Shown: in pieces, positions 18,413 to 31,762 of the stretch
Layout of the letters: each line of letters starts with the position of its first letter
How positions within the stretch are numbered: position 1 is the first letter of the stretch
Source of the DNA: Guptibacillus hwajinpoensis
GTDB taxonomy: Bacteria > Bacillota > Bacilli > Bacillales > Bacillaceae_J
Direction: 5' to 3'
NCBI GenBank assembly: GCA_016841285.1
Contig: JAENZK010000004.1
Span: 1 to 38,127 of the forward strand
DNA length: 38,127 bases
Translations under genes and position numbers: made by a program
Notes under the pieces: generated by a model
Database searches by the model: none
What the model was told of the DNA's origin: nothing
The model's input: the letters and a program-made list of their open reading frames with translations, nothing else

Positions 18413-18559
18413 GAAAAGCGCAAGCGCCCGTTTAGCGACGTATAAACTGGAGCGCATCGACTGAGATAAAGGAAACACGATGAGTAAAGCGAATCGATGT
18501 TGACTTATCGTAGGGAGGTGGGCGAAGTTTACGAGTCGCTGGGCGCTGGAGCTAGACAA
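18413..18559 (+). repeat. Dispersed structured repeat, copy A
   Basis: gaaaagcgcaagcgcccg...gataaagg...ttgacttatcgtagggagg...gggcgctggagctagacaa; three related copies elsewhere in window. Confidence 0.85.
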
Positions 18560-24745: not shown

Positions 24746-24896
24746 TTGTCCAGCTCCAGCCACCCAGCGCCTAGCGAGACTTCATTCGCCGTCGTACGAT
24801 AAGTTAACATCGACTTGCTATGCTCGTCGTGTTTCCTTTATCTCCTCCGGCTCAGTCCAGTCCGAACGGCACAAATCGGGTGGCCTACGCTTTTCT
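24746..24896 (-). repeat. Dispersed structured repeat, copy B (most divergent arms)
   Basis: Reverse complement agaaaagcgtaggccacccg...gataaaggaaacacgacg...ttaacttatcgtac...gggtggctggagctggacaa. Confidence 0.8.
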
Positions 24897-25590: not shown

Positions 25591-25652
25591 TTGAGTAAAA
25601 TTTTATTAATTGGAAAATATAACAGTAAATGGATAAAGAGAAGAGTGAACTT

Positions 25653-26741
25653 ATGGCTAGAATTGTATCTGTAGGTCTTTGTACACCTCCCTACCGAATT
25701 TCACAAGAAAAAACAGGCGAATTCATTAAAGAGTTATTTCAAAATTCCTTTCATGAAATCGAACGATTGTTAAAAGTATTTGAAAACGGTCAAATAAAAG
25801 AACGTTATTTTTCCGTTCCGTTAGAATGGTTTAGCGAAGATCATACCTTTGCTGAAAAGAATGATATCTTTATTGAAAAAGCAGTACAGTTTGGAATTTC
25901 TGCGATCAAAGAATGTCTAGAGAACTCGACCTTTTTACCAGAACCCATTCCATTTGAAGATATTGATGTTATTTTTTACATATCATCAAGTGGTTTATCC
26001 ACACCAAGTATTGAAGCCAAAATTATGAATCAGTTGCCGTTTAAGAAAACCTGTAAACGAATCCCGATTTGGGGTTTAGGTTGTGCCGGTGGGGCCTCAG
26101 GTTTGTCGAGAGCATTTGAATATTGTAAAGCCTTTCCGAAAGCAAAAGTACTCGTATTAAGTGTGGAGCTTTGCAGCCTGACTTTTCAAAAAAATGATCA
26201 CTCAAAAAGTAATTTGGTCGGGACCTCGCTTTTTGCTGATGGTGTTGCGTGTGCCTTATTATCGGGGCAGGAAGCAGATCTAAGGCTTAACAATGCGGAA
26301 ATAGCTTTACCTAAAATTGTTGCAACACAATCCATGCTAATGCCTGATTCTGAGGATGTCATGGGCTGGAGCATTAGAAATGCAGGATTTTATGTTATTT
26401 TTTCAAAAGATATACCGTCTATTATTCGGACATGGGTTCAAGGTAATGTTCAAAAGTTTTTGGCTGAAGAGCAGGTCACAATGCAGGATATTAAACATTT
26501 TGTTGCCCACCCTGGTGGTAAAAAAGTATTGGATGCCTATGTAGAAACCTTTGGGATTACTAAAGAAAAGATAAATAATTCGCTCGAAATATTAACGAAT
26601 TATGGCAATATGTCATCGGCAACCATTTTATATGTTCTGAAAAAGTTTCTTGAAAACGGAACTAAAAAGGGCGATCTGGGACTGGCAGCAGCTGTAGGAC
26701 CGGGCTTTAGTTCGGAATTATTACTATTACGTTGGGAATAG
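25653..26741 (+). CDS. bpsA: Type III polyketide synthase (chalcone synthase-like, BpsA/BcsA)
   Basis: MARIVSVGLCTPPYRISQEKT..., RIPIWGLGCAGGASGLSRA active-site Cys, FVAHPGGKKVLDAY, YGNMSSATILYVL. Confidence 0.9.
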   Translation: MARIVSVGLCTPPYRISQEKTGEFIKELFQNSFHEIERLLKVFENGQIKERYFSVPLEWFSEDHTFAEKNDIFIEKAVQFGISAIKECLENSTFLPEPIPFEDIDVIFYISSSGLSTPSIEAKIMNQLPFKKTCKRIPIWGLGCAGGASGLSRAFEYCKAFPKAKVLVLSVELCSLTFQKNDHSKSNLVGTSLFADGVACALLSGQEADLRLNNAEIALPKIVATQSMLMPDSEDVMGWSIRNAGFYVIFSKDIPSIIRTWVQGNVQKFLAEEQVTMQDIKHFVAHPGGKKVLDAYVETFGITKEKINNSLEILTNYGNMSSATILYVLKKFLENGTKKGDLGLAAAVGPGFSSELLLLRWE

Positions 26742-26751
26742 AGGGAATAAC

Positions 26752-27312
26752 ATGTTTTTTTCAATCTTCATATCTTTAGTAATTTTACAAAGATTGGCGG
26801 AGCTTGGGATTGCCAGAAAGAACGAAAAGTGGATGAAAGCAAATGGCGGTTTTGAGGTAGGAGGGGAGCATTATAAATTCATTGTTTTAGTCCATGTTTT
26901 GTTTTTTATGTCATTAATTTTAGAAGTATTGTTTTTTAATAAAGAAGTATCTTCGTTATGGACCGTCTTTTTACTATTTTTCACACTAGCTCAGGGCCTT
27001 AGAGTATGGAGTCTTTTATCTTTAGGGAAATTTTGGAACACGAAAATTATTATCATGCCTAATGTCAATATTATTTCAACCGGACCGTATAAATTTATCC
27101 GACACCCAAATTATTTAGTGGTAGTGGTTGAATTATTAGTTATACCGTTGATTTTTAATGCCTATTTTACAGCTGTTATTTTTACCTTCCTAAATATGGT
27201 GGTCTTAGGCATAAGGATACCAATTGAGGAAAATGCGTTAATTAGGGAGACCGATTACAAAGCAGTATTTCACCAGCGTGCTCGATTTGCACCTACTAGG
27301 GAACGGTCATAA
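26752..27312 (+). CDS. bpsB: Isoprenylcysteine carboxyl methyltransferase-family protein BpsB (YpbQ)
   Basis: ISTGPYKFIRHPNYLVVVVELLVIPL and EENALIRETDYKAVF motifs; directly follows bpsA. Confidence 0.88.
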   Translation: MFFSIFISLVILQRLAELGIARKNEKWMKANGGFEVGGEHYKFIVLVHVLFFMSLILEVLFFNKEVSSLWTVFLLFFTLAQGLRVWSLLSLGKFWNTKIIIMPNVNIISTGPYKFIRHPNYLVVVVELLVIPLIFNAYFTAVIFTFLNMVVLGIRIPIEENALIRETDYKAVFHQRARFAPTRERS

Positions 27313-27328
27313 ATTATTTACGTTATCA

Positions 27329-27485
27329 TTGTCCAGCTACAGCACCCAGCGACTCGTAAACTTCGCTCATCTCCCTACGATAAGTCAACATAGGGGAGAA
27401 TCGCTACTCTCGTCGCCGGATATCCTTTATCTCAGTCGATGCGCTCCAGTTTATACGTCGCTAAACGGGGGCTTTCGCTTTTTCG
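27329..27485 (-). repeat. Dispersed structured repeat, copy C
   Basis: Reverse complement cgaaaaagcgaaagcccccgtttagcgacgtataaactggagcgcatcgactgagataaagg...gagtcgctgggtgctgtagctggacaa, close to copy A. Confidence 0.85.
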
Positions 27486-27931: not shown

Positions 27932-30900
27932 ATGTTAGAAATTAATCGTTTAGCAGCACTATACTTAGAATTACAAGAAAAAGGGGACAAAGACAACGCT
28001 GAAAAAGTGAAGCAGCTTGTCGAAAAGTTAAAAAACAAAGAATTTATGATTGCTTTCTGCGGGCACTTTTCCGCAGGAAAATCGACAATGATGAACCACT
28101 TTATGGGAAAGGAAGTTTTACCATCCAGTCCCATTCCAACAAGTGCAAATCTTGTTAAAATAAAAAAGGGGACAAGCTACGCAAGGGTTTATTATAAAGA
28201 AGCCGATCCAGTTGAATTTCCGGCTCCTTATGATTTTGAAGTCGTTAAAAATTTTGCAAAAGATGGCGAAAATATCATCTCACTTGAAATCAGTGATGAA
28301 GATATTAGTCTACCAGAAGGTGTTTCCATTATGGATACGCCTGGAATTGATTCAACTGATGACGCCCATCGAATTTCAACTGAATCTGCACTACATTTAG
28401 CAGACATAGTCCTTTACGTAATGGACTACAATCATGTTCAATCAGAATTGAACTTTTCGTTTACGAAAACTTTAAAGGACCGTGAGAAGCCAGTTTATCT
28501 AGTTATTAACATGATCGATAAGCATAATGAGGAAGAATTAAGCTTTGAATCGTATAAGACTAGTGTAATAGAGTCGTTCAAAAGCTGGGGCGTCAACATC
28601 GATGGGTTATTTTTTACATCATTGAAAGACTTGAGTCATCCGTTAAATGAATATAGCAAGCTAGACCAGTTTTTGAAAAACCAAATTAACAATAAAGAAG
28701 AACTTTTACTTAAAAGTGTGATTAATTCTGCAAAACCATTGATAGAAGATCACTTGCAATTTTTTGACAATGAGCATGAAGATGATCTGCATGAATTAGA
28801 AGCCCAACTTGAGGATTTACCTGAAAATGAAAGAAAGCGGGTTCTTCAAGAAGTTATCGATTTAGAAGAAAGACAAACTACATTACAATTTAATAAAAAT
28901 AACTTAAAAGAGCAATTTGAAGAAGGAATTAAGAAAATTCTTGATAATGCTTACTTAATGCCTGCAGCAACAAGGGAGTTAGCTCATTCTTTTATTGAAG
29001 CGAGTCAGCCTGATTTTAAAGTTGGATTTCTTTTTTCGAAAAAGAAAACAGAAGAGGAAAGAACCACGAGATTAAATGCTTTTTACGACAGTTTCAAAAA
29101 GCAAGTAGAGGCCCAGCTTGATTGGCATATAAAAGACTTTTCGGTTAAATTTTTCAAGCAGAATGAAATCGATAATGAGAATTTTATAAACAGTATTTTT
29201 GAGGAAGTAACAGTTCAGTTTGACCCGGATCTTTTGGATGAGTTGGTTAAAAGGGGAGCAGGTTTAACAGGGGAGTACATTTTAAATTATACAAATGATG
29301 TATCCAATGAACTAAAACGACTATATAGAAATCGTGCATTAGAAAAATTTGAAGAGGGTAAAGGCCTCATTTATTCTGTTATTGATCGTGAACTGTCAGA
29401 TGTTGAGGCCAACTTGGCGAACTACACACAATATAAGCATGCTGTAGATGGGTTGAAAAAGCTACAACAAGAAAGAAACAGCGTGGAAAATGAATTATCG
29501 GAATTATTATCATCTGAAACTTTACAGCAAGCGGTTCTAGAAGCTACCAATAACTGGTTAGGACAGTTTAAAGGTAATACGCCATCTATCGAAATTAGGC
29601 AGATGGAAATGGCGGAACAAAAAGAAAATAATGAAGTAAATAATGAGCAAGCAGAACAAAGTGTTGACAATGTTTTAGAGAGTAATCCTGTTCAAGATCT
29701 TGTTCAATCAGTTGATAGCTTTAACGTCAAAGAACGTTTAGGAGAAACCGTTGCAAAATTAAAAACAGCGATTAGTTCATTAAACGGTATTAAAGGTATT
29801 CATGCCCTTGCTAGTGACATGGCAGCAAAGGCAAATAGATTGAATGACAACCGTTTTACTATTGCATTATTTGGAGCCTTTAGTGCAGGTAAATCATCGT
29901 TTGCAAATGCTTTAATCGGTGATAAACTGCTTCCGGTTTCACCAAACCCAACGACAGCGACGATCAACAAAATATTGCCTTCAGACACTAAACACCCACA
30001 TGGGACTGTTTTAGTTAAAGTAAAAACAAAAGAGCAAATTTTTAAAGATGTTGAGCAGTCATTAGCGTTGTTCCAAAAGAAATGTGCTTCAATGGAAGAT
30101 GCTTTGTCAGTTATTAATTCGTTATCGTACGAAGGAAATGACCCGAAGGAAAAGCCGCATTATTCATTTTTAAAGGCTGTTCATATAGGCTATGATTTCA
30201 TCGCCCCACATTTAGGGGAAGTGTTAACCGTTGATTTAAAGGAATTTGAAGACTATGTTGCCAAAGAGGAAAAATCTTGTTTTGTGGAATGGATTGAGCT
30301 TTATTATGATTGTCCATTAACAGAACAAGGAATCACTTTGGTAGATACACCAGGAGCGGATTCTATTAATGCAAGACATACAGGAGTAGCTTTTGAATAT
30401 ATCAAAAATGCAGATGCGATTTTGTTTGTAACCTATTATAACCATGCTTTCTCAAGAGCGGATCGTGAGTTTTTAATTCAACTTGGACGTGTGAAAGAAG
30501 CATTTGAAATGGATAAGATGTTCTTTATCGTCAATGCAGCCGATCTTGCGAAGTCTGAGGAAGAATTAAAACTGGTTGTAGATTATGTAGGTGATGAGCT
30601 TAAGAAATTCGGAATTCGCTTCCCGCGGATTTATCCTTTATCAAGTAAGATGGCATTAGAAGAGAAGCTGCAAACAAGAGAAGGAAAGTCCGTAACAAGT
30701 GAATCAAACATTGCCGCCTTTGAACAAGCATTCTATTCGTTTATTATGAATGATTTAGTTCAAATCTCTATTCAGACGGCACATGAGGACTTAAAACGAT
30801 CTGTAGCTGCGCTTCAAAATATTATTGCGACAGCTAAGGAAAGCGATGAAGTGAAGCAACAAAAACGTCAAAATGCAGAGCAAGCGAAAGGGCAAATTCA

Positions 30901-31609
30901 TGATAAACTAAAGTCAAAGGAATTCAGGGTAGAAGAAAGATCGTTAGCACAGGAAGTCGAAGAATTACTATTTTATGTGGCCCAACGCGTCTTTTTCCGC
31001 TTTAGTGATTTTTATAATGAAGCCTTTAACCCATCATCGTTACGAGATGATGGCCGCGATTTGAAAAAGGCGGTTCAAAGCTGTTTAGATGAATTACTAG
31101 TTAATATTGGTTTCGATTTGTCCCAGGAATTACGTGCTACGTCATTACGTATTGAAAACCATTTGAATAAATTATTGAAAGAAGTACATCAGGGTGTGGA
31201 AGGAATGATTGATGAGCTTCATCCGATTCCTTTATTACCTGTGGGAGCTCGCCAGTTTGAGACAATGGATTTTGATAATGCCCTAGAGAAAATTTCACGG
31301 GATCCATTTAAATCTGCATTATCCCTATTTAAAAGCCCAAAAGCATTTTTTGAACAAGGCGGAAAAGCTAAATTAAAGGAGAGTCTCCAAGAATTGTTGC
31401 AAGAACCTGTTCATTCTTATATTGAAAAACAAACATCACATTTAAAAGATGTTTATCATTCTTATTTGCTATCTTCTCTAGAAGATGTTTTGAAAGAAAT
31501 CGGTGCAGAAGTTGATGACTATTTTGAAGGATATTTTGCAGCTCTATCAGAAACCATTGATATTGAAAAACTTGAAAGCGCAAGATCAAAAATTCAATCT
31601 ATTATATAA
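27932..31609 (+). CDS. dynA: Dynamin-family protein DynA (YpbR), two dynamin modules in one chain
   Basis: Two GTPase P-loops (GHFSAGKSTMMN and GAFSAGKSSFANAL) and two DTPG G3 motifs (MDTPGIDSTDD, VDTPGADSINAR); 1225 aa; follows ypbQ. Confidence 0.95.
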   Translation: MLEINRLAALYLELQEKGDKDNAEKVKQLVEKLKNKEFMIAFCGHFSAGKSTMMNHFMGKEVLPSSPIPTSANLVKIKKGTSYARVYYKEADPVEFPAPYDFEVVKNFAKDGENIISLEISDEDISLPEGVSIMDTPGIDSTDDAHRISTESALHLADIVLYVMDYNHVQSELNFSFTKTLKDREKPVYLVINMIDKHNEEELSFESYKTSVIESFKSWGVNIDGLFFTSLKDLSHPLNEYSKLDQFLKNQINNKEELLLKSVINSAKPLIEDHLQFFDNEHEDDLHELEAQLEDLPENERKRVLQEVIDLEERQTTLQFNKNNLKEQFEEGIKKILDNAYLMPAATRELAHSFIEASQPDFKVGFLFSKKKTEEERTTRLNAFYDSFKKQVEAQLDWHIKDFSVKFFKQNEIDNENFINSIFEEVTVQFDPDLLDELVKRGAGLTGEYILNYTNDVSNELKRLYRNRALEKFEEGKGLIYSVIDRELSDVEANLANYTQYKHAVDGLKKLQQERNSVENELSELLSSETLQQAVLEATNNWLGQFKGNTPSIEIRQMEMAEQKENNEVNNEQAEQSVDNVLESNPVQDLVQSVDSFNVKERLGETVAKLKTAISSLNGIKGIHALASDMAAKANRLNDNRFTIALFGAFSAGKSSFANALIGDKLLPVSPNPTTATINKILPSDTKHPHGTVLVKVKTKEQIFKDVEQSLALFQKKCASMEDALSVINSLSYEGNDPKEKPHYSFLKAVHIGYDFIAPHLGEVLTVDLKEFEDYVAKEEKSCFVEWIELYYDCPLTEQGITLVDTPGADSINARHTGVAFEYIKNADAILFVTYYNHAFSRADREFLIQLGRVKEAFEMDKMFFIVNAADLAKSEEELKLVVDYVGDELKKFGIRFPRIYPLSSKMALEEKLQTREGKSVTSESNIAAFEQAFYSFIMNDLVQISIQTAHEDLKRSVAALQNIIATAKESDEVKQQKRQNAEQAKGQIHDKLKSKEFRVEERSLAQEVEELLFYVAQRVFFRFSDFYNEAFNPSSLRDDGRDLKKAVQSCLDELLVNIGFDLSQELRATSLRIENHLNKLLKEVHQGVEGMIDELHPIPLLPVGARQFETMDFDNALEKISRDPFKSALSLFKSPKAFFEQGGKAKLKESLQELLQEPVHSYIEKQTSHLKDVYHSYLLSSLEDVLKEIGAEVDDYFEGYFAALSETIDIEKLESARSKIQSII

Positions 31610-31762
31610 AGAAAAGCGAAAGCGCCTTGCTCATCGCCGTACAAACTGGAGGGGACAACGACAGCGATAAAGGAAACTTGAATTGCGTTAGCAATTCTTA
31701 GTTGACTTATCGTAGGGAGGAGTCCTGAAGTTTGCTAGGCGATAGGCGCAGGAGCTAGACAA
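31610..31762 (+). repeat. Dispersed structured repeat, copy D
   Basis: agaaaagcgaaagcgcc...gataaaggaaac...ttgacttatcgtagggagg...ggcgcaggagctagacaa. Confidence 0.85.

Follow-up and report, generated by a model that had tools for sequence, protein, structure and literature searches.

The window examined in this study is a 38,127-nt stretch of Guptibacillus hwajinpoensis DNA (contig JAENZK010000004.1, assembly GCA_016841285.1; this genome is designated G000). It carries four copies of a repeat, designated A to D. Copy A separates the stop codon of an M32 carboxypeptidase gene from the terminator of that gene. Copy B is found 3' of a LigD-type primase-polymerase gene, copy C 3' of an ICMT-family gene, and copy D directly 3' of the stop codon of a dynamin-family gene. 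The functions of these adjoining genes are unrelated to each other. The original prediction had located the four copies correctly within about 4 bases and in the right orientations (Table 1). At 25629-27312, a type III polyketide synthase (chalcone synthase-like) gene adjoins the ICMT-family methyltransferase gene, and positions 27932-31609 encode a 1225-aa double dynamin-like protein.

Table 1. Repeat copies in the window and the conserved core of copy D
Feature	Position	Strand	Description	Covariance-model match
Copy A	18413..18557	+	AGCGAC/GTCGCT subfamily	160.5 bits
Copy B	24748..24896	-	divergent subfamily, outer stem GCCACCC/GGGTGGC	119.4 bits
Copy C	27331..27485	-	AGCGAC subfamily, longer apical arm	125.2 bits
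Copy D	31610..31760	+	ATCGCC/GGCGAT subfamily	128.8 bits
Conserved core of copy D, GATAAAGGA...GTTGACTTATCGTA	31666..31714	+	invariant columns, 63-copy alignment	

All four copies fold into a single long hairpin. The folding energy of the strand given in Table 1 is -55.7 to -61.9 kcal/mol, and the complementary strands fold more weakly, at -41.4 to -49.3 kcal/mol. The outer, second and third stems, the invariant GATAA/TTATC pair and the variable apical hairpin proposed earlier were all present in the alignment of copies. In copy D, the core consists of an invariant helix and internal loops surrounding the variable apical hairpin. The core pattern GATAWAGGA-N12-42-GTTRACTTATCGTA had exactly 4 matches in the window and none in 100 dinucleotide shuffles. 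No match was obtained for the window in Rfam at the gathering threshold, and copy D gave chance-level matches only.

Spread of the family and covariation of the hairpin arms

A covariance model was built from 63 diverse copies and used to search the whole genome. At least 150 copies were detected in G000, showing that the family is far larger than the four copies first described. When copy D was used as a BLAST-type query, 50 places were found in the same genome, several of them in tandem. Across the order, 93 of the 146 sampled genomes had matches at E<=1e-5. The core was found by a core scan, among the matches listed, in Siminovitchia, Neobacillus, Virgibacillus, Oceanobacillus, Pontibacillus, Halobacillus, Lentibacillus, Cytobacillus, Alkalihalobacillus, Lederbergia, Bhargavaea and others. 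The copies are intergenic, often with a stop codon on one side and a terminator on the other. Three copies searched against a plasmid collection and two searched against a phage collection gave no match, and a single viral contig out of 2.9 million contained the core; coverage of these genera may be sparse in all three sources. Given this near-total lack of matches, plasmids, phages and viral contigs were dropped as carriers. Within open-licence papers, no published description of the repeat family was found, and a search of papers for the sequence of the element returned, among the matches listed, unrelated primers only. The family is very abundant, scattered through Bacillaceae chromosomes and apparently unnamed.

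Some species carry more than 100 of these repeats on a chromosome, and many Bacillaceae genera have them; they shape the intergenic DNA of their hosts. The family, which has no Rfam entry, breaks short-read assemblies and alters gene ends. G000 is a draft of 484 contigs, and many of these end inside a repeat (for example at C346:1, C444:1, C457:1, C59:1 and C140:6447); the repeat is therefore a likely cause of assembly breaks. At the end of contig C140, four copies with equal scores form an array with 153-bp spacing.

The claim that the arms covary had been made from four copies, and it was borne out on the 63 diverse copies by shuffle, slide and tree-aware tests. Paired cells amounted to 92.5% in the 63 copies versus 81.6 +- 0.4% in shuffles. 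When the partners were moved by 1-3 columns, pairing was only 29-44%. Both-sided changes were seen at 28 of the 46 pairs, in 335 cells compared to 103.6 +- 13.4 in shuffles. Since related rows can inflate such counts, a tree-aware test was added, in which G-test scores with APC were set against those of columns evolved anew, each on its own, along a FastTree tree; it gave E<0.05 for 14 of the 46 pairs. When all column pairs of the alignment were ranked, the ten top-scoring pairs were all in the hairpin structure. The structure is the fold of one member, so it is favoured by the slide control and not by the all-column-pair ranking. A lack of significant covariation is excluded by these tests on 63 copies, and random drift of a dead repeat was rejected by the shuffle comparison together with the tree-aware G-test. 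These results support the view of a structured intergenic Bacillaceae repeat, with constraint on, or propagation through, the folded form.

One G.T pair was kept in 62 of the 63 copies. With this fixed pair and three poorly supported pairs excluded, G.T (G.U) outnumbered A.C by 87 to 25. This suggests that the strand as written is the folding strand, as RNA or ssDNA; the asymmetry is suggestive at most, because mutation also differs between strands.

Insertion sites, ends and arrays

The joined flanks, with the element removed, of 20 and then 21 isolated G000 copies were searched in the congeners G001, G002 and G003. Many of them matched straight across the joint (L210, L227, L008, L014, L018, L027 and L007). 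At L221, G000 reads AATTA, the element (AGAAAAG...GGAC) and then AAAAGAACCCC, and the empty site reads AATTAAGAAGAACCCC in G001 and AATTAAAAGGAGCCCC in G002. As for the copies in the window, copy A has an empty site in both G001 (L176) and G002 (L190), and the joined flanks of copy C match sites without the element in both of these congeners (L167 in G001, L184 in G002). Copy D is lacking in G003 and G005, and its position in G001 and G002 holds internally deleted remnants. For copy B, the left flank only was found in G001 and G002. In the orthologues of L163, L416 and L426, the apex is deleted and the base of the hairpin alone is left.

No target duplication was detected among 119 isolated copies, and the identity of their flanks was no greater than that of permuted pairs. 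The 5' flank is merely AT-rich, with A at position -8 at a frequency of 0.68 and, at -6, no C and almost no G. The inserted DNA sometimes also includes an AT-rich tail beyond GAC (L008, L014 and L017). These results indicate that the repeats are mobile DNA elements, which insert precisely and without target duplication. At L227 (C352 of G000; the site in G002 is empty), the copy closely follows a TATAAT box and precedes the start region of the downstream gene, and thus probably lies in the 5' UTR of that gene. At L022 (C461 of G000; the site is empty in the congeners), insertion seems to alter the 3' end of a reading frame, with a new stop codon provided by the element.

The element begins with AGAAAAGCGnAAGCGCC and ends with GGCGCTGGAGCTRGAC, often followed by an AT-rich tail of about 30-50 nt. 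In the alignment, the conserved ends are AGAAAAGCG and GGAGCTRGAC, and the hairpin is 145-150 nt long. The inner hairpins differ greatly between copies with the same ends, and identical termini enclose interiors of ~80 to ~330 nt. A 116-nt form with the same ends and without the GATAAAGGAAAC core was found in G116, and 113-116-nt forms with the same ends and another interior were found in G104. In 2 Mb of loci, the spans from 5' to 3' end fell into classes of about 80, 115, 145-150, 200 and 260-330 nt; some of the ~80-nt spans are apparent matches of the 5' pattern within the core and not true short elements. The long spans contain several inner hairpins. The large members L313-L337 (G037) and L062 have repeated small hairpins with loops of the CACGTCCTGTG and GCACTTCCTGTGC type. 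In these 2 Mb, the spans reached only about 330 nt, and none had a coding interior, that is, a gene between the repeat ends.

The tail differs with the 5' end. Copies starting with GAACAAAAGCG had a tail with the DnaA-box-like TTATCCACA in 17 of 30 cases (0.15 expected), and copies starting with AGAAAAGCG more often carried TATACTTTCTTATC (53 of 264; 2.2 expected). Since the two types of 5' end go with different 3' tails, the tail is part of the element. Tails of the GAACAAAAGCG type (3' of L137, L034, L078, L100, L112 and L345) read AGTTATCCACA, a DnaA-box consensus, followed by AATTTTATAATTTCCTA.

The repeats also form arrays of a unit plus a fraction. The 5' end of a copy recurred within 75 nt downstream in 110 of 336 copies, compared to 1 in the reversed control. 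Some of these downstream 5' ends begin another full unit, often of a different subfamily. Fragments truncated at the 3' side directly followed a unit in 54 cases, versus 6 cases of 5'-truncated fragments directly before a unit (p=1e-10). Some of the fragments repeat private bases of the preceding unit, such as GCGGTAGCGCC at L340, GTGTAAGCGCCTGTTTA at L309 and GGAAGAGCCCGTTAAGCG at L315. The mean length of match was 22.7 nt to the own unit versus 14.7 nt to other units, and the fragment was closer to its own unit in no more than 38 of 52 cases. Copying from a circular template would be expected to leave a fixed start, a variable stop and additional whole units, and it is from the shape of the arrays alone that we infer a circular intermediate. 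The truncated neighbours could alternatively have arisen by nested insertion and subsequent decay.

Orientation relative to the replication fork

The direction of the fork was determined from GC skew on five closed or nearly closed chromosomes, in which 123 copies with flanking DNA were available. The skew was taken from separate samples for G082 and G139 and from the flanks of the copies for G037, G104 and G116. The fork was opposed by 98 of the 123 copies (p = 2e-11), and the copies switched strand between replichores in G082, G139, G116, G040 and G037 (in G037, with the origin elsewhere in the contig). The bias was weaker in G139 (18:13). In C1 of G139, the top-scoring subfamily differs from the other copies in that nearly all of its members occupy the minus strand, whichever the replichore (for example at 469510, 920674, 1764160, 2991600, 3257490 and 3887583).

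The fork-opposing bias was 22:6 between convergent genes and 19:2 between divergent genes. For genes co-directional with the fork the ratio was 48:16, and for genes opposed to it 9:1. Because the bias holds across these classes of gene context, the orientation is not caused by the genes; gene direction as the cause of the strand bias was rejected, as the bias persists where genes run against the fork. The window has a positive GC skew, and copies B and C are therefore in the majority orientation and copies A and D in the minority. The fork-opposed orientation suggests that the repeats move as folded single strands at replication forks. With an orientation set by replication, culturable hosts also allow a direct test of how MITE-like repeats spread when no transposase is visible.

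Mode of spread and comparison with known systems

We consider it fairly probable that these are non-autonomous repeats, mobile in the form of a folded single strand that probably passes through a circular state and is inserted at forks by an enzyme acting in trans. The conserved ends close the long hairpin, and its inner part is exchangeable. The element would most likely move as a folded single strand, with a circular form probably involved, and would insert at replication forks into AT-rich intergenic DNA. An enzyme supplied in trans would mobilise the repeats. The single-stranded state, the circular state and the trans-acting enzyme are what we infer for the repeats. A broader proposal can be made, though it is rather unlikely. 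In this proposal, a host-wide Bacillaceae system would copy circular folded ssDNA into forks with a fixed start and any stop; its enzyme would belong to neither the known Y1 nor the known reverse-transcriptase families, the repeats would be the substrates of the system, and one type of end would bring a DnaA-box-like site.

The repeats might instead be a classical REP/RAYT-like or IS200/IS605-derived element mobilised by a Y1 (HUH) transposase of the host, which we regard as unlikely. The hairpin substrate, the lack of target duplication and the replication-dependent orientation are as reported for IS200/IS605 (PMC5371812). Six Y1_Tnp genes are present in G000, and five of these encode 190-309 aa. 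However, no copy lies within 1.5 kb of these six genes. A REP-associated transposase, suggested by the original prediction, was looked for and none adjoins the copies; the REPtron arrangement and a GTAG-tagged 20-40 nt palindrome are likewise absent. A further 15 Y1 loci, from other genomes, had only two copies and one fragment in their vicinity, with no flanking pattern and not beyond chance spacing. Y1_Tnp is present in most copy-rich genomes; among these genomes, G075 and G134 gave no match, and fragments alone were found in G026, G096 and G118. In transposition of the IS608 type, it is the template of the lagging strand that is active. Here, that template is complementary to the strand with the apparently preferred fold; this conflict, like the failure to find a mobilising enzyme and the weaker bias in G139, weighs against the favoured reading given above.

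Spread through RNA, in which a trans-acting reverse transcriptase would copy the folded transcript and the cDNA would be inserted at forks, is quite improbable. Target-primed copying predicts a fixed 3' end and truncated 5' ends, and the opposite was seen in the arrays. RVT_1 also had no match in seven copy-rich genomes (G044, G040, G080, G037, G134, G024 and G096). Such a route is consistent with a sense strand that folds better and tolerates G.U over A.C, and with multi-branched complex interiors that resemble structured RNA; priming of cDNA from the nascent leading strand would also yield the observed orientation. Since there are copy-rich genomes without matches, neither the Y1 nor the reverse-transcriptase class is needed at present, and a past enzyme may have been lost after the spread.

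It is very doubtful that the repeats are a conserved cis-acting RNA, such as a UTR element or a terminator-like regulator, kept for a local function. The strong covariation and the frequent position between stop codon and terminator agree with this. However, the orientation ignores gene direction, orthologous places in congeners are empty or hold internally deleted remnants, and the genes next to the copies in the window have no common function. The empty sites, the replication-set orientation and the unit-plus-fraction arrays make a mobile DNA element the first choice over RNA. The original prediction of a structured, possibly RNA-level element thus stands for the constraint on the fold, which the covariation tests support; action as RNA would be no more than a possibility. 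Quasi-palindrome correction by template switching in the hairpin, which can homogenise any long DNA hairpin without selection on the fold and would go with the frequent deletions of the hairpin apex, is extremely improbable as the sole source of the covarying arms, as the internal loops and mismatches have been conserved and not mended into perfect pairs, and the one G.T pair is retained.

A classical MITE moved by a DDE transposase was rejected, as isolated copies have no target-site duplication. Helitron and IS91 rolling-circle elements have a fixed start, a variable stop, tandem forms and no target duplication. The repeats share all of these features, but they are far smaller, and no Rep-type protein-coding member was seen. 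The bcr1-bcr3 repeats (PMC6542083, PMC2267715, PMC3446304) resemble them in being about 150 bp, intergenic, foldable, with mobile features and found in Bacillaceae, but are reported to be confined to the B. cereus group and linked to TTTAT motifs; they may be kin. The pneumococcal BOX, RUP and SPRITE are also modular, structured, small intergenic repeats (PMC3049150), but BOX and RUP give rise to target duplications and are distributed over the strands in line with coding bias, which the present repeats oppose.

REP/BIME/REPIN sequences with TnpAREP (RAYT) are similar in their many intergenic chromosomal copies, which are foldable, clustered and without target duplication. They differ in having a palindrome of 20-40 nt, compared to 145-150 nt here, and, at one end, a GTAG or CGTC tag that the repeats lack; no RAYT gene adjoins the repeats, and some copy-rich genomes have no Y1 match. 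IS200/IS605 elements likewise have hairpin ends, no target duplication and an orientation that follows replication (PMC5371812, PMC6006769), as was found here for the fork-opposing majority of copies. Unlike them, the repeats have no adjoining tnpA, their interior is one long covarying hairpin, and they form unit-plus-fraction arrays. IS200/IS605 elements insert 3' to a fixed tetra- or pentanucleotide; no tetranucleotide target was seen at the repeats, whose 5' flank is AT-rich. The best reading is that the repeats are a superfamily of small non-autonomous mobile repeats, which work like IS200/IS605 or REP and fall outside both by the features that define them.
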